From Daphnia pulex (Eukaryota > Arthropoda > Branchiopoda > Diplostraca > Daphniidae), in assembly GCF_021134715.1 (NCBI RefSeq), contig NC_060018.1, forward strand, positions 10,433,501-10,497,500: 64,000 nucleotides of DNA, in the 5' to 3' direction. The translations under genes were made by a program, and so were the position numbers. This document shows, in pieces, positions 3,000 through 43,522 of the stretch (its first letter is position 1; every line of letters begins with the position of its first letter). The notes beneath the pieces were generated by a model. It saw only the letters and a list, made by a program, of their open reading frames with translations, was not told the origin of the DNA and made no database searches.

Positions 3000-5480
3000 A
3001 GCTGGACTGCTTCATTTGATCAGAAAATTTGGGTATAAAGGTATCCCTGCTTTTCTATTTTAATGGCTGCTTGGAATGATTATTGGACTTCGATACTTTA
3101 GCGTTCAGCCATGAGTTAAAAACTGAACTTCTCTTTCTTTTACTATTAATTTACTTGAGTGTTTTCAATAGGGATAGGCCTCTTCTGGATATCGTTCCCT
3201 GGTCTTGTCGAAAAAATTTTAAAGGTAAATTCAAACCTCCAGATTGACGAAGTTTACAATGTGCTCGGTTCGATCTTCGACTGTCACGAAGTTCCTGGTT
3301 AACAGGTTTCTAATGGAGGTATTTCGGTATGTATTAGCCGACGGACGGTTAATTATGTGGTTAACGGTACAGTCAAGATATTCCGTTCTTAAATCATCTT
3401 CATCCGGAACCTAAATAAAAAAATTCATCATATTTAGACGTAAACGAAGAATGAAGTAATACTTCACCATCATCGGACCTCACATCGACTGCATGGAGCA
3501 GCAATACCTGGTATTTTGATGAACAATTGAATCGAGAGAAACCGCTTAGTCAACGGAGAAAGCGGATTTATTGCTGCCTCTGCTGTAAGTAGGGTCCTCT
3601 ATCCCTGAGCGTTCAACTCGACAGGTCTGCTTACGTAAGTGTCGGTGAAAGCTTGCGCTTTACTCCATGAAGCGCACAACAATCCCTGGTAGACGGTAGA
3701 CGAGACTGCAAAACGGTTGAAGACCAGAATAATACAGGAAAATAGAGCCAATTTCCCATCAATCTCAGGGTCAAGCCAACTACTTCGGGCGACCCAACAA
3801 GTCAACCAATCACATACGAGATGGTGGACGAAACACTGAATCTACCACTCTGACTGGTCAGACAGTGGTTTAGAGTTGGGCATTTTCAATGGTGGTGGGT
3901 CTTTTAGAAATATTTCCTTAAAAAAGCTGTCTGCAAAACCTTGTGGCTTAGAAGAAGCTTAAAACATTAAAAATGGTAACGTAATTCGAAAATGCCACGG
4001 GCCTCTAGCAGACGCATTTTTTTAGTTCTAGGGCGTGTCTAAAAAGCTAGGACTGCAAAAATGATGAATTTTTAGTGAGTCAGGTGATTACTTATATATT
4101 TCTCCTTGAGTCCCGAATTTTTCTCTGCCATTTCTTCATTCTGCGACTAATTAAATAATAAACTACGACATTATCTAACCAAAAACCAAAAAGTCTATCA
4201 AGTATTTAGGAAAATAGTAAAAATTAATAGATCTTGGGTTTCAAAAATGGATACGCCCCAAGTACCCCCATAGGTAGGCGCAGAGTGGATTTAGTCTGTT
4301 TGACACTCGATATTATATTGGATGAGAAATAAAATACGACTAATTAGCAAGGCGATGGGCAATCTTGTGGTCGTTTCATTTAACTTGTGTACCTTGTCGC
4401 TTAAATATAATGAAGCATTTATTCAAGTCGTTGGCTGAAATTGTGATTGAATTACAATACACATACAGTTGGATACTTATAGTGTTTGGTAAGGTAAGCG
4501 CTTGTATTTGCTATATATGTTTAGTCTTGAATCGTCGAAACTCTATATTTAGTGCGGTATTTTCAAATGCACAATATAAGCAACCACTAGCGATAACCAT
4601 AAAAATGAAAAGATAGGCGTTTAGGTGAAAAGATAAATGGTATTATTCAGTTAAAATTAATCGGTTTTCATAAGTGGTTTCTTATTTAAGTGGTGATACT
4701 TTAATTAATTGTTATTCCCCAAGTTTTTTAAATAATTACTAAAATAGTAGAATTCTACAATGGTTGGAAGCAATTCTGTTGACTAATTCTCGAAAAAAAA
4801 ATTAGAAAAAATATAAATAAAGCATCGAATACAAGCAACCACAAGCGACATTCAACAAAACCATTAGCTAATTGCATAGTAAAAACACTACGTAATCATA
4901 TGTAGGTAATAGTTATTCGATTTAAATCAGTGGTTACTTATATCCGCATACCGTTAACACCAGAAAAAACCACCCCAATGACAAAGTAGATATTTAACAA
5001 AATTTGTGGTTCCTCACATTATGATCATACACATAAGATTTTAGTAGGTGAATAACTAATTCTAAAATTTTACTTTAGATTTACTAATACATACGAGGAT
5101 TCGGGATTGCCTTTAAAGATATGAATGAATCTTTTTATTTTCATATTGTTATTTATCGATAGAATAAACATTGAATTTAATAAATGGATTTAAAATAATT
5201 TAATTCAGGACGTTTTTTGATAATTTGTAAATATTTCCATTTGGCAACTTTTCGCAAAGCCCTAAACCTATTTGTCGTGTGTGTCCGTTTCCCTTTATTT
5301 TTTGAAAATGACCAGACAAGTTAATTCAATTACTCTTTTCTCTGATACATCAAACATTATTTTCATGGCGGCTAAATCTCTCCAGTTTTGAGCTAGGGAT
5401 CCTTCACACGGGCTATCGACGTCGATTGACTGGTCTATTTATATATTTTTTAGAAATTTATACTGTTATCCACTTGCGGA
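3000..5480. other. Long stretch without an identifiable gene
   Basis: A minus-strand open frame at 3599-3805 (68 codons) is the only sizeable one, and its protein resembles nothing I recognise. The rest is AT-rich sequence with no supported exon, RNA or repeat. Confidence 0.4.
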
Positions 5481-23937: not shown

Positions 23938-25386
23938 TCAGGTTCCTGATGAGATAATAGTTGGCATACTGAAAGGGAATAAAGTCATGATGCGTAATAC
24001 CTTTGAACTTTGCAGGACACTCGTGCACAACTGATGGAGAGAGTGATAATGGTGCCACACGTCGATTGGTGTAGATGTTGGCACTGAAAGGAGTGCTATG
24101 TCTGTCTGTTGTTGCATCTCTGATAATTTTGGAAGAATGGACAAATGATAAAGCGTTTTTCCAATCCTCTCGCCCATCATGACAACTGCTTTGTTCTTCT
24201 TAAAGGTTACTTTGGTCTCAATAAAATGTACAGACAGGCCAACAGCGGTAACAGCAGCAATCGAAATTAAATTGGTGCCAAGATTGGGTACACAAAGGAC
24301 ATTTTCAATACTGACTATTCGCTTGATGGTACCTACTGAGACAATGAATTCAATACCGTATCCACGCACGAATAGACGAGTAGACCCGATTCCACTAACA
24401 GTCCAAGAATCAGGAAGAACTGGTTTAAAGGTTCAGAAAAAGGAACGTTGGTCACTCATGTGCTGTGTGGCACCTGAGTCTGTGAACCAATCTGAATTGC
24501 TTCGTCCAATGAAACATGAAGATGAAAAATAAGCGTCGTCATTGAGATGTTGTTCAGGGTTATCAGCATCTTCTTTTTCTTGAGTTGATGCAGCTTTGGC
24601 AGCACTTGCGTTGTTCTTTTCTTTCCTTGCATCTTCTTCATCTCGAATTCTTTTTCGACAATCTTCTATGGTGTGGCCAGCAATGTCGCAGCGTCGATAT
24701 TTGCAAAATCTATACGGTTGTTGTCTGTAGTTAGAACGGCCACCACGTCTGGAACGATCACGACCACGTGAGTTGAGGTTGAAAGTTTGTGGATAAGACG
24801 GGTTTTGGTGGGCGAAGAAAGCTGCATCCTGAGCATCCGGTTTTCCAGTGTTCCATCTTTTCGCCATCTCTTCCTCTTTTAGTAGACGGGATGTTAATAA
24901 TGCCATGGTCCTATCTGCAAATGTGACACTATCCCACGCTGTGACAAAACTTCGATAGCTGGGTGGCAAGGTACATATGATCTTCGTCATGATAGAAATG
25001 GCGTCAATTTCTGCTCCAATATCAGTAAGTTGTGTGACCATGGTTTCTATCTCAGATATATGCGCCATGATGTCCTTGTCTGGCTTGAAACGATACTCAA
25101 AGAATCTGGTTTGAAGTACATACCGATTCTCGACAGCATTTCTAAGGTATTGTGCCGATAGTCGTACCCACATCTCGTGAGCTGTGTTGCAGTTGATTAG
25201 AGATCTTTGTTGTTGACTTTCAATAGTTGAGATGAGATAACCACGGGCAAGTGTGTCTTTGGTATGCCAACTTGCTATAGCAGCAGCATTAGTGACTACA
25301 CTACACCTAATGGCTAATACTACACCGAATGGCCGGACTTGCAAAATCTTGACAAAACCTTGGATCTGGATAAAAATAACCAACAC
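23938..25386 (-). mobile_element. Copia-type retrotransposon gag/protease remnant
   Basis: The frame 25386-24433 contains a UBN2-type Copia gag (TAHEMWVRLSAQY, IICTLPPSYRSFVTAW), an RG-rich stretch and a zinc-knuckle-like CKYRRCDIAGHTIEDC in which the first spacing is widened from CX2C. It ends at the retropepsin start WFTDSGATQHMSD. The protease continues in another frame at 24369 onward with VLCVPNLGTNLISI, followed by the gag-pre-integrase-like WHHYHSLHQL. Frames are shifted around 24370-24430. Integrase, reverse transcriptase, RNase H and LTRs are absent, so the copy is truncated at its 3' side near 23940. Confidence 0.85.
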
Positions 25387-28799: not shown

Positions 28800-30215
28800 T
28801 CAATTAAACGAATTCAATAGCTACTCTAGAATTATAAAATCCAATTACAAACTAAAATAAAAAACGCAGTATATTACAGTTGACAGTGGGGACAGCCGAA
28901 TTGAAAAATGTAAACAAGTATAGAAAGATGCGTCTGCAAAAAGTACTAACAGTATCCAAATTTAAAAAATTAAATTGTATTTTCAAATAAATTGAATTTG
29001 CAAAATTTAGACTGTTTAAAAATAAAATATGAAACAAAACATAATAGTTAATTGAGATCCAATTAAAACAATTCAAATTTAAGTTTAAATGAACACAACT
29101 CCATTTTACCCTATGCTTCAGAGCGAAGGAAAATTTTAACTAAACTAAGAATATATAAATGAATCTGAATCTGTATGAGGTTGTTTAACACAGGAACCTA
29201 TCAAAGAACATATTTAAATTAATTGAAATACAATGGAAGCAAGTCTAATAAAAAAAACTTACATGTTCTTATTCCAGCCTTCATAGTTTACGATGAAGAA
29301 AATTCCACTGATAACCAATAATACTGGTAATTTCTTCAGAAAAAGGGTCCCTGGATCAATAATAATAGAATAATGGTTAATAAAATTGAATGGCTGCAAA
29401 CTTTCTATAGACAGAATGTAAAATGCAGTAAAAAAATAGCGAGCTTACCAAGCCATACCCCATAATTGATATTTTACAAAGAAAATGGGGGTGTTTTGAT
29501 GGGAAAAAAGCAGGTTACTGAAAGAAATATCACCTGTAATAAACTGAGTTACTTAATGTGATAATTATATCTTAAAATCACGAATTTACCATTTTGACAG
29601 TTCCTATAGGCAAGAGAGAGAAAGATATTTGGTAAAAAAATTAAACAAAATGACTGGAAATAGATGTACATAGGGTAAATTTAAAAGCTGAGTACGAAAA
29701 ACACCACTAAAAATCTCAAATATTGATAATAAATAAGAAAATACAGTAAAAATATACGGGCCTATTTAAGAAAAAACAAAATGGCCGCCAAAATCAACAA
29801 ATCTGGAACGACCAATTTGCCACCGCGGCAGCACTCTTTTCCCCCTACTAACCTGAGAGCGCATTTTGAGGACGAGCGTTTGAGCTAGCTCACCAGTTCC
29901 GTGTTTTTTTTTCTCATTCTCATTTTTCTCGTTCATGTTTCACTAAGCAGTTTCAAAGTTGTGTGAAGAAGTAGATGCGGTTTTAGATGGGTTAATGATT
30001 ATACCGTCTAAATAAACAATAATTAATTCTTTCCATTCTTTTTATCCAGTAATAGAAATATGGTTTTCGATATCTCCTGAAAGTTTTTGAAAGGGCAAAG
30101 CTAATTCTGTAAAACGTTCACACAAATATCTTTTTTTGTCTTAGTAGGTCTTTAGTAGTTTTAGTAGTTATTTTTTTAGTCTAATTTCCGCTTTAGTGCC
30201 ATAATCAATTGATGA
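28800..30215. other. No supported gene
   Basis: Strongly AT-rich DNA. The minus-strand frame at 29076-28852 may be leader sequence of the five-exon gene but lacks coding character. An ATGGCCGCC at about 29780 opens no long frame. Confidence 0.35.
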
Positions 30216-30223
30216 GAAGTGGG

Positions 30224-30258
30224 TGACGTCATCGCTCAATGCTTGCCCATTATATATA
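30224..30258 (+). promoter_or_regulatory. CRE plus TATA promoter-like pair
   Basis: A palindromic TGACGTCA (30224-30231) precedes TATATATA (30251-30258) by about 20 bp, in a locally GC-richer patch with a CT-rich stretch downstream. This is a eukaryotic promoter arrangement on the edge of the bacterial-type segment. No spliced host gene is recognised downstream. Confidence 0.45.
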
Positions 30259-30491
30259 GGCGTCGCTCCATCGCTTCTGCTACCCAATTCCCCTGAATTT
30301 ACTATAGATATTGCAAAAAGAATTTTGCAAATTTACCATTTTCAAGAAATCTTTTCTATAACATTTACGCTTTATTGAATACCGTGATATTGTTACAAGC
30401 AACAATTTATTATTTCATTTTTCTACATATATTTTTCTTGCTATCATTAACTTAAATCATCAGTATAGTTATTAGCACTAATTTATATAGG

Positions 30492-31837
30492 TTGAGAAAT
30501 GATAGGGTATCAGCAAGTAGCCAAACCAAGGAGCAAAAAGAAGCTGTCGGATTACTTTCATTTGGAACGTTTCTTGACTATTTTGATCTGATGCTGTATG
30601 TACATATGGCAGTTCTTTTAAATGAGCTCTTTTCCCCAAAAAGCGATCCTTTTACCTCTGCATTGCAGTCTGCTTTTGCATTTTGTTCAGTGTTTGTTTT
30701 AAGACCTGTTGGTGCACTTATTTTTGGTAGGATAGGTGATAAAATCGGTCGTCAACCAATAGTTATTATCACAACCTTTATTATGTCTATTGCATGCATT
30801 ATAATTGCTACTCTTCCAACATATGAACAAATAGGTATATCAGCTGCATGGTTAGTGACCGTGTGCCGCATGTTACAGGGCATGTCATCTATGGGAGAAA
30901 TAGTAGGTGCAGAAATTTATTTAACTGAATTCGTGAAACCACCTATGCAATATCCGGCTGTAATGTAAGTTGCAATTTTTTCTTTTTTTGGAGGGACAAC
31001 ACCTTTGGGCGTTGCATCTATTACAACTAAATATCAATTTTATTGGCGTATTGCATTTTGGATTGGTGCACTAATTGCAATGGTTGGTGGTGTTGCTAGA
31101 ACAGCACTAAAAGAACCAACGGATTTTGCAGATGCAACATGTCGGTTAAAAAAGATCTTAGATAAATCCGGTGTGAGCATGGCTAAATTAAAAGATGAAC
31201 CTATATTACATGAAAAAGTAAGCAAAAAAACAACTATAGCCTTATTTATAATACAATGTGGATGGCCATTATGTTTTTTTTTACGTATATTTATTGTGGG
31301 AATATCCTTCAAACTCAGTTTGGTTATAAACCAGAAGAAGTAATTAATCAAAATGTTATCGTACCAATGGTGAATTTAGTTGGCTATATATTATTAATGT
31401 ATTTAAGTTATAGAATACATCCATTAAAGATATTGAAAGCAAAACTATTTATATTCTGTCCGGTTGCCTTGCTTTGTCCTTACTTGCTAAGCCATATAAA
31501 CAGTCCATTACATATATTTGCACTGCAATAATATTTTATGTTATTTGTGCTTAGCACTAATCCAGCTACCCCTGTTTTTTATACTCATATTCTCATTTTC
31601 CAACGTTTTACTTATGGTGGTTTTATATATGGTGTGTCTCGTATTATCATGCATATTACTACATCATTTGGAATTATCTATTGTGAGAAATATTTTGGAC
31701 AATGGGGAGTGTCGTTGATCATAGTGTCTATGGCAATAGGTTATGGATTTGGGATATTTTACTTTATGAGACTAGAGAAGGAAGCCGGAAATTATCATGT
31801 GAAGTTTGGTGATCATTCTGTCTCTGCATATTCTTAA
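30492..31837 (+). pseudogene. proP: Rickettsiales-type ProP-like MFS transporter, broken
   Basis: The intronless frame covers nearly a whole ~440-residue major facilitator of the proline/betaine (ProP) type found in many paralogous copies in Rickettsia-related bacteria. Seen are FDLMLYVHMAVLLNELFSP, the MFS loop 2-3 motif GRIGDKIGRQ near codon 80, CRMLQGMSSMGEIVGAE, and hydrophobic helices to RLEKEAG near the end. A nonsense TAA at 30966-30968, a frameshift near 31250-31300 and another TAA at 31529-31531 inactivate it. The frame opens with TTG; the first in-frame ATG is about 97 bases in, so the exact bacterial start is uncertain. It converges on the SpoT-like gene and overlaps its stop. Codon use is AT-biased and unlike the GC-richer LINE nearby. 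Confidence 0.85.
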
Positions 31838-32398
31838 AACATAGCCTTGCTTGTTTTTTGCTCAACTTTTGGGGTTCCAAGATAAATACTAAGACTCATA
31901 AATCTGCTAAGAGTTTCTTCTATTATCTTCTTAATTTTTCTGGAGATTTTACTCCAATAGTTTGTACATTATGAATTCTATCGAATAGCTTAATGATTAA
32001 GACATCATATTTCTTTTGTAGCCATAATAATTCTACTGTTTCTTCTGCACTAATTTTTCTGTCTACCTTCACTTTGGTTAAGTCTTCTACCTGATTAGCA
32101 ACCTGACTACCAAAAATACTATCAATCATAGTTTTAGTTAGAGCTGTATCTTCAATAGTATCATGAAGTAAACTGGTAATAATAATATCAGTCCTGAAAT
32201 ATTGGGGCATTTCTAATGCTGTGTGCTGTGCAACCATGTACGCTACTTCTATCGGGTGAGAGTAATAAGGTTCGCCGGATTGTCGCATTTGCGAACCATG
32301 ATATTTTTTGGCGTAATATATACCTTTTTTAACCTCATCAATATCTATTGGTGGTTTTACTTGCTGATTCAGTCGAGTTAGTTTATTGAGTAACCCCT
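31834..32398 (-). pseudogene. spoT: SpoT-like HD-domain (p)ppGpp hydrolase, frameshifted
   Basis: The frame begins near 32398 (LLNKLTRLNQQVKPPID), reads GIYYAKKYHGSQMRQSGEPY then SHPIEVAYMVAQ, the HDxxED hydrolase motif in LLHDTIEDT, and LFDRIHNVQTI. These are the metal and substrate residues of the SpoT HD domain; no synthetase domain follows. A single missing A in the run near 31925 shifts the frame, after which IIEETLSRFMSLSIYLGTP continues to a TAA at 31836-31834. Animals have their own short homologue (MESH1/HDDC3), but the lack of introns and the bacterial neighbours favour a rickettsial origin; stand-alone SpoT genes are common in rickettsial amplified elements. Its stop overlaps the transporter stop by four bases, a compact bacterial arrangement. 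Confidence 0.8.
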
Positions 32399-32843
32399 AC
32401 TAAAACACCGCATACTAATAACGTTATATGATGGTCAAAAACGAATGTGTACAACCACATTGATTTTTCGAACGTTGTATTTATCTAATTTTTGTTCGAA
32501 GAAATTCATCTTAAATTTTAGATTCGCTTAACGTTCATAGCATGTACGAATACAAAAATCAATATCAGCACCTAAAATGAACATAAATTTTAGGAACGGA
32601 TTTGAAGGTGAAATCTAGAAAGTAGATATTTCACATTTGTAATAAACATCTTACGTTAATAGAACATTAAACGCCGAACATATATCTAATCCGCAAAATT
32701 GTATATTCATGTGACGTGCGGGATCGCAAGTAATATACGAAAATTATGCTTCTATTTTGAATGTTGGGCGAATGTTCATATAACCTTCCCATTTGTACAA
32801 AGGTGTATGTGATTCTAGCCTCTTGGCGCCATAAATTTTGATA

Positions 32844-32912
32844 GGAACAAATAGCTCAATGGTAGAGCAGCGGTCTTGTAAGCCAAAGGTCTATGGTTCG
32901 ATTCGCAGTTCC
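32844..32912 (+). pseudogene. tRNA-Thr(TGT)-like sequence, bacterial style, degraded
   Basis: GGAAC at the 5' end pairs with GTTCC at 32908-32912. The D-arm GCTC-AATGGTA-GAGC is perfect, and the anticodon loop CTTGTAA gives TGT (32877-32879). GGTTCGATTC forms the T-loop. The anticodon stem keeps only about three pairs, the T-stem has mismatches and the acceptor is short, so it is not functional. AGCTCAATGGTAGAGC is typical of bacterial tRNAs, but a tRNA-derived SINE head cannot be excluded. Confidence 0.5.
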
Positions 32913-33097
32913 GACTTCTCTAATATAACGCTTCGGTAGCATGGCAGATTGGATATAGATACCAATGTATGTGTATGTTTTTTCTATGTTCTATGAACAT
33001 ACCAATGGTATTCAGAAGAGAACTATAATAGTATATGACTAAATGGACATTAAATGCGCGGCAATAGGGAATCAAAAATGAACATTATATTCATATA

Positions 33098-33306
33098 CAG
33101 TATTGTCCAAAATAATCCGAACACCATGGTCTCTTTCTTTATTTTTTAAAAATATTTCGAAAATTTTTTCTTAATTCTAAAAAATGAACTTTGTAAAACA
33201 ATTAATTCTACACATAATATGAAGGCTTGAATGTTTAAAACAAAAGATATACATTAAACTGGGCTTTTGAAAAAGAGGTGCGTTCGGATTTTTTTGGACG
33301 ATACTG
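33098..33306. mobile_element. Tc1/mariner-type MITE, 209 bp, TA target duplication
   Basis: Terminal inverted repeats start CAGTATTGTCCAAAATAATC at 33098 and end with the complement of CAGTATCGTCCAAAAAAATC at 33306, about 30 bp with few mismatches. TA dinucleotides at 33096-33097 and 33307-33308 are the target-site duplication. The interior lacks a transposase. It lies between the tRNA-like sequence and the leucine-rich-repeat gene. Confidence 0.85.
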
Positions 33307-33535
33307 TACCATTTGAACATCCACATACTTTTTTTGAATCTCACATTTACATGCAATGAACGTCGACGTTTTAGTAGGGACCTTTCAGCATACTCACAAG
33401 ATTCAAACTTTGACTGCCAATTATGAATATCTTCCATTAAACACCTAACACATTAGTTTAATCATAAATTAAATTAAACTAAAATTCTGCTACTTTCAAG
33501 CATTTACTATTTTAAAAGGTGAATATTTTTAAAAA

Positions 33536-34142
33536 TTATACCATTAGTTTTTTGTTATGGTTCTCTAAAACCTGAGTTAACAACTCTTCTACTTCATAAC
33601 TAGTATTTTTATTTTCAAAATCTGAGAAATCTATTATTATTTTGCTTCTAATTTTATTAGACTCCAGAATTTTCACCAGTTCTATTGCCCAATTGTCAGT
33701 AATGTAATTATAGCTAATATCTATTTGGCTGATGGTTCTATTAGTTTCCAAAGCTTTAACAATCTGGACAAGCCCAACGTCACCAATATTATTAATATTG
33801 ATTTCCATTTGTTTTAGAGTGCTATTTTTTTTAGAAACTCTGCTAGTATGATTGCTCCTTGATCACTAATATTATTGTCACAGAGATTCACTTGCTTTAT
33901 AATTTTATTTTTTGTTAGAAGTTCTGCTAATATATCTGCTCCCTGATCACCAATATTATTGTGATTAAGATTTATTTGCTTTATAGTTTCATTATTTTCT
34001 AGAAATTCCGCTAGTATGATTAGCCCCTGAATACCAATGTTGTTATACCCAATATCCATATTTATCAAACTATGATTAGTCTCTAAAATTTTGATAAGGA
34101 GACTGAGTTCCTCAAAACCAATATCGTTGTCGCAAAGATTAT
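33536..34142 (-). pseudogene. Bacterial-type LRR protein, C-terminal part
   Basis: Ribonuclease-inhibitor/NLRC3-type leucine-rich repeats follow one another: NLCDNDIGFEEL, MDIGYNNIGIQGL, NLNHNNIGDQGADILAELL, NLCDNNISDQGAIILAEFL, then EININNIGDVGLVQIVKALE and IDISYNYITDNWAIEL. The repeat unit is about 28 residues. A one-base loss in the A-run near 33826-33833 shifts the frame after EFLKK. The end is at about 33536. Such proteins are frequent in Rickettsiales and other intracellular bacteria, where they are suspected to contact host proteins. The gene continues on the far side of the LINE at 36.4 kb. Confidence 0.75.
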
Positions 34143-36400
34143 TTTATGTATGTATGTATGTAAAATTTATTTATATAGCGCACTTATCATGCAACCATGC
34201 TACACATGACGCTGAAGTACAATCGTCGGTTTTTGGAACAATAAATTTCATTGGGAAAATGCGATACTGAGGAGGTGGGTCTTTAGTTTCGATTTGAAAG
34301 AGCAGATTGTTGTCGAGCTAGTGATGGTGGGTGGGAGAGAATTGAGAAGTGTAGGACCAAGAAAAGAGAAGGATCTTTCGCCGTATGATGCAAGACGAGC
34401 GCAGGGGACAAGGAGGAAGGTAGTGCTAGAGGACCTTAAGGATCGCGCTGGGGTGTAGGCGGAAAGAAGAGAAGAGAGATAGACGGGTGCGAGTGGGTGA
34501 GAGAGACGACAGCGGAAGGCGAGAGTTGTGGCTTTGAAATTTATGCGAAACTTGACGGGTAGCCATTTTAGGTCCTTGAGGAGTGGAGTGGCACCGTCAC
34601 GCTTGCGTCTGCGCAGGATGAGCCGGACGGCAGCATTTTGGACCCTCTGTAGGCAAATGATGGTTTTGTCGGGTAAGCCGGCGTACAGGGAGTTGCAGTA
34701 GTCGAGGCGCGACATCACGAATGCAAGAACGAGAGCTTTTGTGGCTGACTGGTCAAGGAAGCGACGAATGCGGGCGATGAGCCTGAGGTGGTAGAAGGCT
34801 GATTTTGCTGTACTTTTTACTTGGCGCTCCATTGTGAGCCCAGCGTCGAAGAGGACTCCGAGGTTGCGACACTTGGTTAACGGGAAGAATTCAAAAGAGC
34901 CAACTGTTAACGGGGTGTCGGGTAGGAGATGAAGTTTGTTTTTAGGCGCGGCGAGTAAAAAGACGGTCTTGTCGATGTTGAGTTTTACACGATTTTTGAG
35001 GTAGAAACGCTCGCAATTGAGGCACCATTTGGAGAGAAGAGAGATAGAGGTGGTGGGCTGGGATTAAGGAAAGGGATTTTTAGCAAGAAGTAGTCTAATT
35101 CGGGCTTGAGTGTCGTCAGAAAAACCGTCGATGATGACGCCATCGGTAGCTGTCACTGAAGGAAGCTGGCAGATATAGATGGTGAACAGAGTCCCGCCGA
35201 GAACTGAGCCTTGGGGAACTCCAAAACGAATGTTGATCGTCTGTGACGAGACGCTGCCGATCTTGACAACTTAAGTTCGGCCACGGAGGTAAGACGTGAA
35301 CCAGCTAAGTGCTGGGCCAGTAAGGCCGCGACGTCATGGTCGATATTGTCGAACACGGCCGACAAGTCGAGGAGGACTTTTGCGGTTCCGATTCCATCGT
35401 CGGCGGCCCGTAGCAAGTCGTCTCATAGGCTTAGAAGAGCTGTTTCCGTGGAATAGTTCTGCCGGTAGGCGGATTGTCGGTCTGGCAGTAAGTCGTGACG
35501 GGTGAGATGGTCGCTGAGCTGAATAAAGATGTCCCTCTCGATAAGTTTTGAGAGAAAAGGGAGGTTAGAAACTGGTCTGTAGCTGTTGGGGTCGTCGGGA
35601 TCAAGATTAGGCTTTTTAAGTAGGGGAGAGATAGAAGCGTGTTTCAGTGCACTGGGGAAAGTTCCAGTGGAGAGAAATAAATTGAGAATGGCTGTTATCG
35701 GAGAGACGAGAAAATCTATAAAACGCTTCAGTAGCACGGTTGGAATTGGATCGAGGCAACAGGACTTATTTGGTGAAGAGAAAATTAGTTCGCGGACATC
35801 ATCGGTGGTAAGCTGGTGAATAGCGGCTAGGCGGGTAGATGGATCAGCGACTGGAGCAGGTATGTGGGGCTGGATGGGTGAAAGACCGGCGTCGTCTGCT
35901 GCGGTTCCGAGGCCAAAACGGATTTGAGAAACCTTGGTTTCGAAGAAATTTGCTAGCTCGGCAGCGGCGACGGCGTCAGAATATCTATTTGGTATGGCCC
36001 GGGCGGTCTGAGTGCCCATCAGAGAGTTGACGAGTGAAAAAAGCTTCTTGCTGTAACCCTGACAGTCCGCCACCTTTATTGAGGCGTGCGACGTGCGCTC
36101 GGAGGCAAGCAGGTAGTTGTGCTGACGTCGCTTGTCACGGTAAAGTTCAAGATGGACGGTGAGTCTGCGTTTCAGCCAGGTCCTCTCTGCGCGACGCTTC
36201 GCTCGCTTTGTCTGCCGTGTTGCTTCCGTGATCCATGGGGCGGATGGGCGGAGAACGACGTTTTTTGTGACGCGTGGTTGTCGATAAGGGAACGAAGACT
36301 ATCATTGTATTGGGCGACGAGGCAGTCAAGGGCGTTGGACGGATCGGTGAAGAGGTTCAAACGTTAGATGTCGTGGACGAATGCTTCAGGATCGTGAGGT
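34143..36400 (-). mobile_element. 5'-truncated CR1/L2-type LINE inserted in the LRR gene
   Basis: On the minus strand the element starts near 36400 in the linker before the reverse transcriptase (DPSNALDCLVAQYNDSLRSL), then shows PNKSCCLDPIPTVLLK, LKKPNLDPDDPNSYRPVSNL, the RT motif DLSAVFDNIDHD and a catalytic FSDD (family form YADD). The C-terminal region (34832-34248) has ARIRRFLDQSATKALVLAFV, SRLDYCNSLYAGLP and WLPVKFRI. Frames shift several times. No endonuclease domain is present. It ends in a TATG/CATA microsatellite at 34143-34163, typical of L2-like tails. GC content is clearly higher than in the flanking LRR gene. Target duplication is not clear. Confidence 0.85.
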
Positions 36401-36637
36401 TATAAGTTCATTATGTTCCAAAGCCTTTCTAAGTATCTCAATTACTTCTAAACCTATATGCTCTTCGCTTAGGTCTATGTGGGTTATGTTTTTGCTCTGC
36501 AAAACATTTCTAAGTATTTGTCCAGCAATATTAGTGATATTATTTATTTCTTCATTTGTTGAATTATTTTTTTGTTGATTTTTAACCTCGGTGCTTGACA
36601 CCACACCACGTAGTGTCATCTTCACAGATATCTTCAT
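36401..36637 (-). pseudogene. Bacterial-type LRR protein, N-terminal part
   Basis: The frame begins with ATG at 36637 (MKISVKMTLRGVVSSTEV) and ends, at the LINE junction, in a repeat reading ITHIDLSEEHIGLEVIEIL and ALEHNELI. This is the same repeat type as at 33.5-34.1 kb, and the truncated repeat is continued by NLCDNDIG on the other side of the LINE. The N-terminal 40 residues are polar and carry no signal peptide. Confidence 0.7.
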
Positions 36638-36849
36638 TAACCCCAGAAGTACAGAGGTTTTTCACTATATAGTGATTTTTTTGTAAAATTTATTATAGCA
36701 GTGTTGAACTAGAGACAGTGGCTAAAATTATTATTAAATAAACATGTAATTTAGCTAAGAAAGCATCAAGTATCACTTTTATTTTTAGCAATGATGGCAT
36801 CTAAATACTTTATGACTTGTTGTAAATACCAGATAATGATTGTAGCACT

Positions 36850-37481
36850 ATCCTCTGAATAATCGTATTAGGAACTCCAAATTCGTACAGGAATTTGAGT
36901 ATATACCAAGAAGAAAAATCAAGGCTAAAATAAGTGCAAGTAATGTTAATAGAATAGAATTTTGAAAAATAGCTATAGCACAAATTATTGGTGATGAAAG
37001 TAAATATAAGATCATAGCTGATGATAAAGCACAAAATATTTTTTTGTTACCAAAAGTTTTAGCTCCTGAAATTTTTGAACTAGCCTTAGTTAATTCTTCT
37101 GGGAACGTGTCTGATTTAATACTTAAGGTAGAAGATATAGAGGGGCAAATTATCAAAATTTCCATGGATAATTTTTATAATAAATCATCTAACATCTGCT
37201 CCTTATCTCTTGAAAATAAATGGTTAGTACAATCCCAAGAACAAGAAATTGCAAGGATGATAAGGAGTATGGTTTTGGATAAAGAAGATAAATATTACGT
37301 AATTAGAGTAAAGAGAAAAATTAACCGTTTGCAAAATATTGGGCTATCCGTAGAGCAAGATAGGATTTATCGTTTAAGTAAACTTATTGGAGCAAGGCTA
37401 AACATCACTAACAAAAACTCTAAGAAACTAATTCATCTTAACGAAGCATACTTTAAAATAATCTTTTTGATTTTTGTTTAG
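36850..37481 (+). pseudogene. Unrecognised bacterial-like reading frame
   Basis: A plus-strand frame can be followed from about 36850 (NNRIRNSKFVQEFEYIP), through one stop near 36962, then ADDKAQNIFLLPKVLAPEIF and VRVKRKINRLQNIGLSVEQD to a stop at 37481. It is intronless, lysine/isoleucine-rich and AT-biased, like the transporter and LRR gene. It lies divergently from the LRR gene. I do not recognise the family; the internal stop suggests decay. The next 130 bp on the same strand (PPKAKGFVWVVAKERDDLSF) also look coding in a shifted frame and may or may not belong to it. Confidence 0.45.
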
Positions 37482-37611
37482 CTACCACTATTGAAAACCA
37501 TACTTCCTCCTAAAGCTAAAGGATTTGTTTGGGTAGTAGCAAAGGAGCGAGACGATTTATCATTTAAATTTCGAGCAGCTACTTTGGGGGTCGAGATTTC
37601 AAGACCAGAGA

Positions 37612-38908
37612 ATGAGCATCAACATTTGTAGTTGCACCGAATTGGATAAACTCTATGAAGAATTCCTGTACCACAATGGAATTGACCCCTCCACTGTCAC
37701 TTTGATTCGAGGTGGTGAGATGCGTGGCAGTGAAATAATCGAGAACCTTCTCCAAACGAAATACTCATTTCTTCCAGAACTAAACTACAAGGCTGAAGAT
37801 AATAATTGTACCAGTTTTACTTTTACCTCAACGCGCAGAGTTGTGTCTCATTCGTCTATCACATGAACGAGTGGGATGCTCTGACTCTGATGATTCATGA
37901 TGCAATTCAAGATATGACGACAAGAATCCTTTTTGGGAGAAAATGTTTACGAAGTTTGAGGATAACTTAAATGAAGGTTGTTTTTTCGCAGTATGTTGTC
38001 GACCAAAACACAACACTTTTTGCTGACGCTGAATATCCACGTTCATTCACTTGCTAGGCTCTTTTGCTATGTTTGACTTTATTTTTTACTCTAACAGGAG
38101 TCTACCGATGTTTCACTAAATTTTTACTCCTTATCTCAAGGATGCTGCGGAAGACATGCATGGCATTAACGTAACTCAGCTATTAGTTGGTTCGAGTATG
38201 AGCTACACTGGCTTTCATGTCGAAAACCTGAATGTTCCCAGTTGTATCTACCTGCATCAAGGCGCCGACAAGTTTTGGATTGCTTATGATATTTAATGTT
38301 TAATTTATTTGTTTGAGCTAGACGGTTTTGCTACACCTCTTACTTGTAGTCTCACCGATGTTATTTATGTTGTTAATATTGCATTTGTTTCCCCATTACC
38401 TGGTGCCTGCTCGGTTTGCTGATAAGTTGCACCAACTTTTGAAACATCTTTTCCCAGCACAATATGCAAAATGTTCACGTTATGATTGGTGAGTATCATA
38501 AAATTTTCTGCACTGTAACCGTTGGCTTTAGGCCTACTATTTTAATTCTATTAGTATTTATTTAGTCATAAAGACTGTATAGTTATGCCGCAAGTATTGA
38601 GGGCAAATAACATTCCTTTCCACTGCATCAAACAGAGCCCAGGAGAATACGTTATCACGTTTCCGGGAGCTTACCATATGATGATGAATGCGGGTCAAAA
38701 CTGGGTGGAGGCGGTAATCTTTTGTATGTCCCAGTGGCGGCATTTCGTACCGGATATAGTGTGCACCTGTACCAAGGATTGCAGTGTGGTGCGATCCAAG
38801 TTGAAGTCGCATTCTGTTGAGTTACCTTCCCAACAGGAGTATGCAGGCAAAAAATTGGAAAGTAGGACAGTCACTGAAGTTGCCTTACCAACCCATTTGG
38901 GTAAGTAG
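37612..38908 (+). pseudogene. JmjC-domain demethylase-like fragment
   Basis: Exon-like pieces on the plus strand follow JmjC order. Near 37915-38030 comes NPFWEKMFTKFEDNLNE and YVVDQNTTLFADAEYP, resembling the segment between JmjN and JmjC in KDM4/KDM5. Near 38145-38295 comes GINVTQLLVGSSMSYTGF then HVENLNVP, keeping the iron-binding H and E. Near 38400-38475 comes PARFADKLHQLLKHLFP. From 38585 the second half reads IKQSPGEYVITFPGAYHMMM, with the distal histidine, then a CTCTKDC block like the minus-strand copy at 22 kb. A first open piece at 37612-37866 is not recognised. Donor GTAAGT occurs at 38898. Other junctions are unclear, so I treat it as a decayed copy. Confidence 0.6.
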
Positions 38909-38918
38909 TTTTGGCTAG

Positions 38919-39269
38919 CGGCGGCGCTTAAGTAATCATAACTCATTTTCGGCTAAACTTCAATTATGGTTGCCGGGGGGCTTTCGCGTGGTACCGCCAG
39001 GTGACCTCCCGTCCGTTCCGTCGGGTGACTCTTCTAAAGTGAAAACTAAACGACCTGAGTCAACTGACATTCAAACATCAGGAGGGGCTGAATTGGTCGC
39101 TGCCAAACGTCAGTGTTTAATGGATGTCGGCGACATGGGCTCAAACGAACAAGACTCTAAGAATTCTCGTGAAGTCGTCGTCATGAGCGTTCATGACCGT
39201 GTGAGCGTTACTTTGACGCCCGCGGACATTGGCTTGCTTAAGCCCCCGAGCATTACTATGGGTGGCTAA
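38919..39269 (+). CDS. Unrecognised acidic/basic open frame after the JmjC copy
   Basis: An open frame from about 38919 reads LPGGFRVVPPGDLPSVPSGD, then KTKRPESTD and a polar region ending PSITMGG. The composition suggests a disordered, possibly nuclear tail. It could be the last exon of the JmjC gene, but a suitable acceptor is not visible. Confidence 0.3.
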   Translation, partial: RRRLSNHNSFSAKLQLWLPGGFRVVPPGDLPSVPSGDSSKVKTKRPESTDIQTSGGAELVAAKRQCLMDVGDMGSNEQDSKNSREVVVMSVHDRVSVTLTPADIGLLKPPSITMGG

Positions 39270-41744: not shown

Positions 41745-43522
41745 ACTACAAACCACAATTTTTTGCTAATGCAAAACAACTGAATAAACTACTCCAGAAG
41801 AAATTTCTGATAAACCAGTCGAACACGGAAATATCTGATGAAGCAACGGAGGTGTTGTGCCTTGGCCTCAACTTCATTCCCTCAAGGAAATTAGTTAAAG
41901 AAAAAATAAACAAACCACTTAACAAAGTAATCTCGGATATCAACAAACACATTGTGCTACACAAAAAAAAAGGAAACCGTGAATAAGGGATGGTTATCAA
42001 AAATCGTGAAAAATGAATGGATCCCGGACGAGCAGACATGGACACAAGACAACCGGATCATCCCATTGCTGCACAAACTATCTGACCCAGAGGAACGAGT
42101 TGACCCTGTCTTACACGACAGTGTCTTGGAAACTCTGAAAAAATTACAAACACGCACGGACATACACATTCTAAAGGCGGACAAAGGAAGAAACACGGTG
42201 ATTTGGAGTACCGCTGATTATGATAGGGAAGCCGAACGTCAACTAGCAGACTCATCCACTTACCGTGAACTCTCGGAAGATGAGTATAACAGTGAACTAT
42301 TAAAAATCAAGTACGAATGCTCCCAAATGGCGGAAAACCTACTCGCCCTGAAGCACATCTCCCCAACAGAAGATGAGGCCATCCAACAAAGACAGCCAAA
42401 GGGCGCAGAAATATATTTCCTTCCCAAAATCCATAAGGACACACAAAATGATAGTAAAACGTTCCCGGGCAGACCAATAGTAGCTACTTTCTCGTCTGTC
42501 ACACACCTACTCGACAAATATATAACTGAAATTACCAGCAATCTGATAAGGCTTATTCCCGGATCCCTCATCGACACACAAGACTTTCTAAACAAGCTCC
42601 CGACGCATCACTCCCCAAATCAGCATTGCTTGTCACCGCGGACGTATCAAGCCTCTACCCCAACATACCGTGGAAAGAAGGAATTGACGCATCAACACAT
42701 TTCTACAAAGCCAACCACCTGATCCTGGTCAACAAAGCAATAGAATAAAAAAAGAAGAAACCCCCACAACCCCATTTATTCAAAAGGATCCTTGAGCTCG
42801 TTCTCACCAACTCAATGATCTCCTTTAAAAACAAGCGATTTTTCAAACAAATTAAGGGTACAGCAATGGGTTGCTGCATTTCGGTCTACTTCGCAAACTG
42901 CTACATGTTTGATGTCACCAAAAACCTGATCAACAACAGACCATCTTGGCTTATTTCCTTCCTTAGGTTTATCGATGACTTATTCTTTATCTCGGAATTA
43001 AATAATATTCCTGAAATTAATAAACTCATCCAATCCATTTCAAACGAAAACATCAAGTACGAAGTAAGTACTCCGGGAAAAGTACTGAATTTTCTTGATA
43101 CAACAATCACATTGACCAAAAAAGGTGTCATCTTGTTTGCCCCTTACTCAAAAGAAATGGCATCAGGTGCCTATCTCCACCCTTCTTCCACACATCCGCA
43201 GCACACAATTGTAGCATCACCATACTCTCAGCAGCTTTTAAGGATCAGACGGATATCTTCTAATATATTTATTTACGAGAAACATGCCACACCCATGAAA
43301 AATAACTTCATTGACATGGGATATCCGGAGAGACTGATCATTCGCCTCTATAACATTATTATGAAAAAAACTTTGTCCGAACTTGTTCACAAAAAGGATA
43401 ACAATTCAAGGAATGCCTTTAGATTAATTACGAAATTTAATTTTACCCATGACTGGAAAAAGACCAACAGTGACCTGAAGACCTTCCATATTATTTGCAG
43501 TCAACTTATTACCTGTGATTGA
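41745..43522 (+). mobile_element. Penelope-like reverse transcriptase, frameshifted
   Basis: From 41745 the frame carries CLGLNFIPSRKL, the N-terminal PLE motif. After a slip in an A-run near 41965 comes ILKADKGRNTVIW (PLE form ADKG...VV), FLPKIHK and GRPIVATFSSVTHLLDKY. RT motif A (LLVTADVSSLYPNIPW) lies near 42625-42672, a stop at about 42745, then QIKGTAMGC, the catalytic RFIDDL near 42967 and KVLNFLDTTI. The tail reads SSNIFIYEKHATPMKNNF. No GIY-YIG endonuclease follows before the stop at 43522. It is co-directional with the small ORFs upstream and is inactive through at least two lesions. Confidence 0.7.

Follow-up and report, generated by a model that had tools for sequence, protein, structure and literature searches.

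A decaying fragment of Torix-group Rickettsia DNA in a chromosome of the water flea Daphnia pulex

A bacterial fragment in the Daphnia pulex genome

About 4.1 kb of bacterial DNA is present in a chromosome of the water flea Daphnia pulex, where it spans positions 30201 to 37556 of a 64,000-nucleotide window (the whole stretch that was analysed, C2:10433501-10497500 of the host assembly) and holds the remains of four genes, encoding a ProP-like major facilitator superfamily (MFS) transporter, a SpoT-type HD hydrolase, a leucine-rich repeat (LRR) protein and TraK. It very probably reflects one germ-line capture of a fragment from a Torix-group Rickettsia, followed by neutral decay and by hits from host elements. 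A preliminary description, made from the letters of the DNA, had placed consecutive frames for the first three proteins and an unrecognised one at 30492..37481. All four frames were recovered by profile and DNA matches; they are adjacent as described but not co-directional, the HD and LRR genes lying on the minus strand, and the segment is indeed bacterial over the somewhat wider span given above, which is interrupted by host elements at 32395-33379 and ~34141-36394. The bacterial features, in coordinates of the window, are as follows.

30201-30306, no strand: dispersed Rickettsia repeat of ~106 bp, the first bacterial DNA at the left edge
30304-31837, plus: ProP-like MFS transporter pseudogene and upstream DNA, with two premature stops and frameshifting indels
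31926-33455, minus: pseudogene of a SpoT-type HD hydrolase, into which a host transposon (32395-33379) has inserted
33536-36661, minus: LRR protein pseudogene, split by a host LINE, with a one-base deletion and a 76-bp deletion near its start
36869-36886: 18-base filler, at which RiCimp position 4674 is joined to 2533 in the window
36887-37556, plus: remains of traK from a RAGE-type, F-type conjugation operon, with one premature stop and two 2-base indels

When the HD frame was compared with a prokaryote genome collection, 49 loci were obtained. The list is headed, with 96% protein identity, by a chromosomal locus of RiCimp, a Rickettsia that lives as an endosymbiont in the midge Culicoides impunctatus. 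This bacterium is assigned to the limoniae subclade of the Torix group, for which the name 'Ca. Tisiphia' has been proposed (PMC9098888, in the parts consulted). A single RiCimp locus is colinear with the bacterial parts of the window, at a DNA identity of 96-98.6% over the matches below, of which the two longest exclude chance.

30304-32395: 97.2% over 2101 columns
33380-34140: 98.6% over 762 columns
36395-36592: 96.5%
36580-36868: 98.3%
36887-37556: 96.1%

Over its full length, the first piece is 94.9% identical to the RiCNE genome and 92.4% to Lappe4. Judged by these comparisons, the Rickettsiales-like donor of the preliminary description is upheld and, more precisely, belongs to the Torix group ('Ca. 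Tisiphia'), as a close relative of RiCimp. In RiCimp, the ProP, HD and LRR genes are followed by a small frame without a Pfam match and then by four same-strand genes ending in traE and traK, the first two being pilin-like and TraL-like as judged by position and eye; the window keeps the order ProP, HD, LRR and then traK. All four window genes are broken and their RiCimp counterparts are intact.

The ProP-like pieces lie at 30456-31834 (+), the first of them matching NCBIfam 2A0106 (E=4.5e-38) and ProP (E=1.3e-30); because the pieces are short, their bit scores fall far under the full-length cut-offs, the intact RiCimp gene encoding 448 aa. The HD frame at 31926-32396 (-) matched Pfam HD_4 (1.5e-15) and NCBIfam spoT_relA (1.7e-29), and the pieces of this gene on either side of the transposon adjoin each other in RiCimp. 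Pieces of the LRR gene lie at 33539-34143 and 36389-36661 (-), with LRR_6 above cut-off in one of three pieces, the third having been assigned because its DNA matches the LRR gene of RiCimp (270 aa). The frame at 36966-37478 (+) matches RiCimp traK, whose intact product scores 24.6 bits for TraK_N, slightly under the 24.8 cut-off, next to a clear TraE (98.6 bits). The F-type tra content of the window amounts to one broken traK, the operon itself being found in RiCimp (TraE by Pfam, the rest by position). Since this frame is traK, the piece would be a fragment from the edge of a conjugation operon of the rickettsial amplified genetic element (RAGE) type and not itself a RAGE; the source locus carries RAGE-type tra genes, so the earlier suggestion of an integrative element would hold good at one border of the fragment.

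At the 18-base filler, 2.14 kb of RiCimp sequence comprising traE and its neighbours is missing from the window, and Lappe4 has a 2.15-kb stretch at this place. The sequence removed by this deletion and by the 76-bp deletion exists in both RiCimp and Lappe4. The filler was considered as a copy of its surroundings (P=0.09).

Relationship of the HD protein to bacterial and host homologs

In a tree of 23 rows picked from several hundred, the HD protein fell into an 11-row group with RiCimp and other Tisiphia, far from the exon of a host MESH1-like gene, as expected of a bacterial and not an animal protein; the tree is a weak one, in which good support is confined to 2 of the 20 inner branches and in which very long branches lead to MESH1 and to one Rickettsia row; three Rickettsia loci were translated ignoring frameshifts, and one of them, R. 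rhipicephali, is clearly misplaced. The host's own HD genes were considered as a source and rejected: both Pfam HD matches in the genome are host genes, which we take to be MESH1-like and HDDC2-like.

Host elements inside the bacterial genes

Three host elements have inserted into the bacterial sequence.

32395-33379, no strand: host transposon of 985 bp with terminal inverted repeats (TIR; CCCTACTAAAAC) and a 2-bp duplication, AC, at its ends; in the HD gene
33098-33306, no strand: miniature inverted-repeat transposable element (MITE), whose features by eye resemble Tc1/mariner; it sits within the TIR transposon, with TA duplicated
34141-36394, minus: 5'-truncated retrotransposon, putatively of the long interspersed nuclear element (LINE) type, within the LRR gene

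The host assembly, in which copies of these elements were sought, comprises 133,188,837 bases in 13 contigs. The TIR transposon has seven other large copies (90-96% identity, on C3, C4, C7, C10 and C12) and its empty site is seen in RiCimp; by eye, a clear 2-bp duplication was not evident at every other copy. At least 31 other copies of the MITE occur in the host (40 of 98 candidates having been scored), and an empty MITE site with a single TA was found as an exact string in four of the seven transposon copies. The nearest MITE copy is 99.5% identical, which suggests that the MITE is the youngest inserted layer. The LINE has four near-full copies at 93% along with partial ones (29 other matches in total), and copies extend beyond the 5' end of the window element in all four cases where the end was found. 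Its RVT_1 match is weak and below cut-off (16.7 vs 29.6 bits), so that the probable LINE-type identity rests on these copies and on reading by eye. A tRNA-like stretch noted by eye at 32848-32919 within the TIR transposon suggests a part resembling a short interspersed nuclear element; ARAGORN called no tRNA there.

The transposon, its nested MITE and the LINE, all within bacterial genes, demonstrate that the bacterial DNA resides in the nucleus, as had been proposed from the sequence together with the decay documented below.

Neutral decay in the nucleus

Changes private to the window were separated from those private to RiCimp by means of outgroups. Lappe4 served for all five pieces; RiCNE was added to it for the first, and Pante1 and nzgw532 for the second and third. 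Differing sites with conflicting outgroups were dropped. Over 4006 aligned sites, 79 substitutions were private to the window and 7 to RiCimp. The 67 coding private substitutions comprise 49 nonsynonymous changes, 3 stops and 15 synonymous changes; the nonsynonymous and stop changes together (52 of 67) agree with the 53.5 +/- 3.1 expected from 2000 simulations without selection, and differ from a bacterial control, RiCimp vs Lappe4, in which they make up 111 of 235 changes (Fisher P=1.2e-5). Changes at the three codon positions number 23:15:29 in the window and 68:38:129 in the control. Private changes affect 2.0% of coding and 1.7% of non-coding sites, and the ratio of transitions to transversions (Ts:Tv) is 28:51 in the bacterial parts of the window vs 184:65 in the control (P=1.2e-9). 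The bacterial parts also carry eight private small indels. Together with the stops, these substitutions and indels show that the bacterial genes have decayed neutrally in the nucleus, where the two deletions may also have arisen.

The TIR transposon copy carries 11 private changes in ~700 bases (1.6%), which indicates that it has been resident for a comparable time and fits an early insertion. The LINE copy has 94 private changes in ~2250 bases, exceeding the surrounding bacterial DNA; some of these may predate its insertion.

Age of the insertion

The private divergence is 1.97% (79/4006). With the D. pulex mutation rates of 2.30e-9 to 4.53e-9 per site per generation given in the parts of PMC12926508 consulted, this would correspond to an age of at most ~4.4 to 8.6 million generations or, assuming 5-10 generations a year, 0.4 to 1.7 million years. 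The figure is an upper estimate if part of the change predates the transfer. The private divergence is also less than half of the silent divergence of 0.134 that this paper quotes.

Edges and host flanks

The repeat at the left edge has at least 25 matches in RiCimp (one of them partial) at 79-93% identity, with 40 of 174 candidates scored, so that the count is a lower bound. It seems to resemble the rickettsial palindromic elements, and no other copy of it was found in the host genome. Two of the RiCimp matches sit on contigs, C1 and C2, that are either plasmid or chromosome. At the right edge, RiCimp homology ends at 37556, within the final codons of traK. Host DNA lies on both sides of the bacterial piece, as repeats on the left and as a gene family from 37906 on the right.

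28801-30196, no strand: host DNA left of the insertion, with a repeat ending at 29905 and then a second match up to 30196
37906-38908, plus: copy of a host JmjC-domain gene (Pfam JmjC, 41.8 bits), beginning 349 bases past the bacterial edge

Copies of the left repeats occur on C3, C5, C7, C8 and C9, the second match having one other copy (C9, 90%). The JmjC-domain gene copy, taken as 37906-39230, has diverged relatives on C11 and C7. Inspection of both edges by eye revealed neither an integrase nor an attachment site, and no search aimed at either was made.

Possible further Tisiphia-like traces in the host genome

Three 12.5-kb RiCimp segments (37.4 kb of ~1.6 Mb) were compared with the host assembly. 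Among these segments no second copy of the locus was found in the host; they matched the insertion locus, and their matches outside it included two short pieces of a single IS630 transposase (HTH_Tnp_IS630, DDE_3). One piece, of 58 bases at C3:4004151-4004208, is 100% identical to the RiCimp IS630-type gene (L015:7331-7388) and lies between host repeats; it gives the impression of a very small, independent insertion of bacterial DNA. Another, of ~49 bases, recurs at 85-92% identity at 11 places on C2 and C4, including an inverted pair at C2:10646277-10646379 inside a host repeat family, many copies of which on C7, C8 and C11 end at the edge of the piece. Both could derive from another bacterium with the same insertion sequence. 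Two further AT-rich RiCimp matches were noted on C8. A plasmid origin was considered and rejected, since 29000-38500 of the window had no match in a plasmid collection searched in near mode only.

A possible, though not favoured, extension is that the D. pulex lineage harboured a heritable Torix Rickettsia like the midge strain at some time in the past ~1-2 million years. Several nuclear traces would then remain of it, namely the 4.1-kb RAGE-edge fragment and the IS630 pieces, of which one would have been carried by a host repeat family as this multiplied on two chromosomes.

Origin of the insertion and alternative explanations

In the explanation we prefer, a Tisiphia chromosome fragment, of ~6.3 kb if the 2.14 kb was lost later, would have entered a Daphnia germ-line chromosome once, following contact of Tisiphia with Daphnia germ cells. 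It was probably captured while a double-strand break was repaired, a route suggested by the two edges, which look unrelated (no integration-site search was made). Its genes, presumably useless in the nucleus, would then have accumulated small indels, stops and substitutions of the neutral kind, and would have been hit by the TIR transposon, by the LINE and, inside the transposon, by the MITE.

Wrong joins are common in draft genomes, and a symbiont contig could have been attached to the animal chromosome by the assembly or by contamination. The transposon, the MITE and the LINE nevertheless break bacterial genes at single points beyond which RiCimp sequence resumes, and apart from the insertion locus the three RiCimp segments compared, 37.4 kb of ~1.6 Mb, had no other long match of the kind that a symbiont contig would give; such layering of host elements makes a mis-join very unlikely, to the point of being scarcely credible. 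Retention of a bacterial gene by the animal for its function has in its favour the HD frame, which is open across 157 codons, and the precedent of foreign pieces that become arthropod gene parts (PMC13389597, in the parts consulted). Against it, none of the four genes is whole, transposable elements having disrupted two, and their pooled change fits neutrality; a functional gene is rejected on this substitution pattern, and we consider the idea highly improbable.

RAGE genes often decay in Rickettsia, and it is conceivable that these were already decaying in the donor and moved recently, so that the neutral pattern and a stop shared with another sequence would be the bacterium's own. That sequence, P0043 (125 aa, from a cluster of 5 sequences and a 2068-base contig), stops at the premature stop of the window and has, over that stretch, four of the five residues separating the window from RiCimp, the fifth being the RiCimp residue. 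P0043 is likely to be another allele of the insertion, the alternative being a bacterium with the gene already broken. Decay in the donor is at odds with the similar change across all four genes and across coding and non-coding sequence, with a substitution spectrum strongly unlike that of the bacterial control, with the comparable residence of the inner transposon, and with the intact state of the RiCimp genes, and we judge it improbable.

The DNA may instead have arrived by the same insertion without a lasting infection, from ingested or parasitic Tisiphia carriers or through another vector. The nearest bacterium is a midge symbiont, and Daphnia is not mentioned in the two Torix papers that were searched by term. 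Germ-line transfer is easiest from bacteria resident in the ovary, and the short IS630 fragments at other places could be a sign of repeated contact, so that this route seems unlikely on balance, though clearly less so than the foregoing alternatives. Daphnia may have been lastingly infected by Tisiphia.

Several observations weigh against a single capture followed by decay in the nucleus. The 106-bp repeat is not at the matching place in RiCimp, Lappe4 or RiCNE, which means that the donor was unlike these three or that the left edge may bring together two separate bacterial pieces. The empty host site was not found. P0043 could come from a bacterium whose gene was already broken, and no independent copy was seen for the HD gene, with no protein above 96% identity among the best 120 of 1093. 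Finally, the Ts:Tv of the bacterial parts (28:51) appears lower than that of host elements, which is 38:42 in the transposon set, 76:59 in the LINE set (including the window's own copy at 50:44) and 3:6 in the MITE set; the values quoted for D. pulex in the parts of PMC12926508 consulted are 0.81 and 1.58.

Other features of the window and chromosome

A copia-type gag frame lies at 24433-25386 of the window (of 40 relatives, the four that carry an organism name come from D. pulex, three, and D. magna, one), and a weak reverse-transcriptase match, below cut-off, at 42815-43522. No tRNA genes, nor Rfam families at gathering score, were found in the window. On C2, ~10.86-10.96 Mb and 11.06-11.16 Mb contain match pairs exactly 194,000 bases apart (for example 10963213/11157213, 10864748/11058748 and 10875650/11069650), which would point to a perfect duplication of 194 kb or else to an artefact of assembly.

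Relation to known systems and significance

Nuclear transfers of Wolbachia DNA are known in insects and nematodes. Like these, the insertion is a decaying piece of the chromosome of an intracellular member of the Rickettsiales in an animal chromosome, with host elements in it; unlike them, it has a Torix-group Rickettsia as donor and a crustacean as host, measures ~4.1 kb and is a single locus in the segments searched. It resembles the Rickettsiales RAGE (as treated in parts of PMC9098888) in that HD/SpoT, ProP and LRR genes stand next to a gene of the F-type tra set, an arrangement that RiCimp shares. It differs in being no more than a broken edge, in having traK as its sole tra gene and in its nuclear location. 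Two clusters, 20 and 21, of chimeras formed by horizontal gene transfer (HGT) have been described from D. pulex and D. pulicaria (PMC13389597, in the parts consulted); these also involve foreign DNA that is recent in this pair of species but, unlike the insertion described here, are annotated fusion genes. None of the titles listed by a literature search, whose reach stopped short of subscription journals and preprints, reports a Torix insertion in Daphnia. The event is of a known kind, with a donor-host pair that was not found in print.

The insertion records a past meeting of a Rickettsia relative with the water flea germ line. It provides a datable nuclear fossil, in which DNA of the Torix symbiont group reached the germ line of the model animal Daphnia and, because a near-unchanged relative of the donor has been sequenced, a clean natural experiment on the decay of bacterial DNA in a crustacean nucleus.

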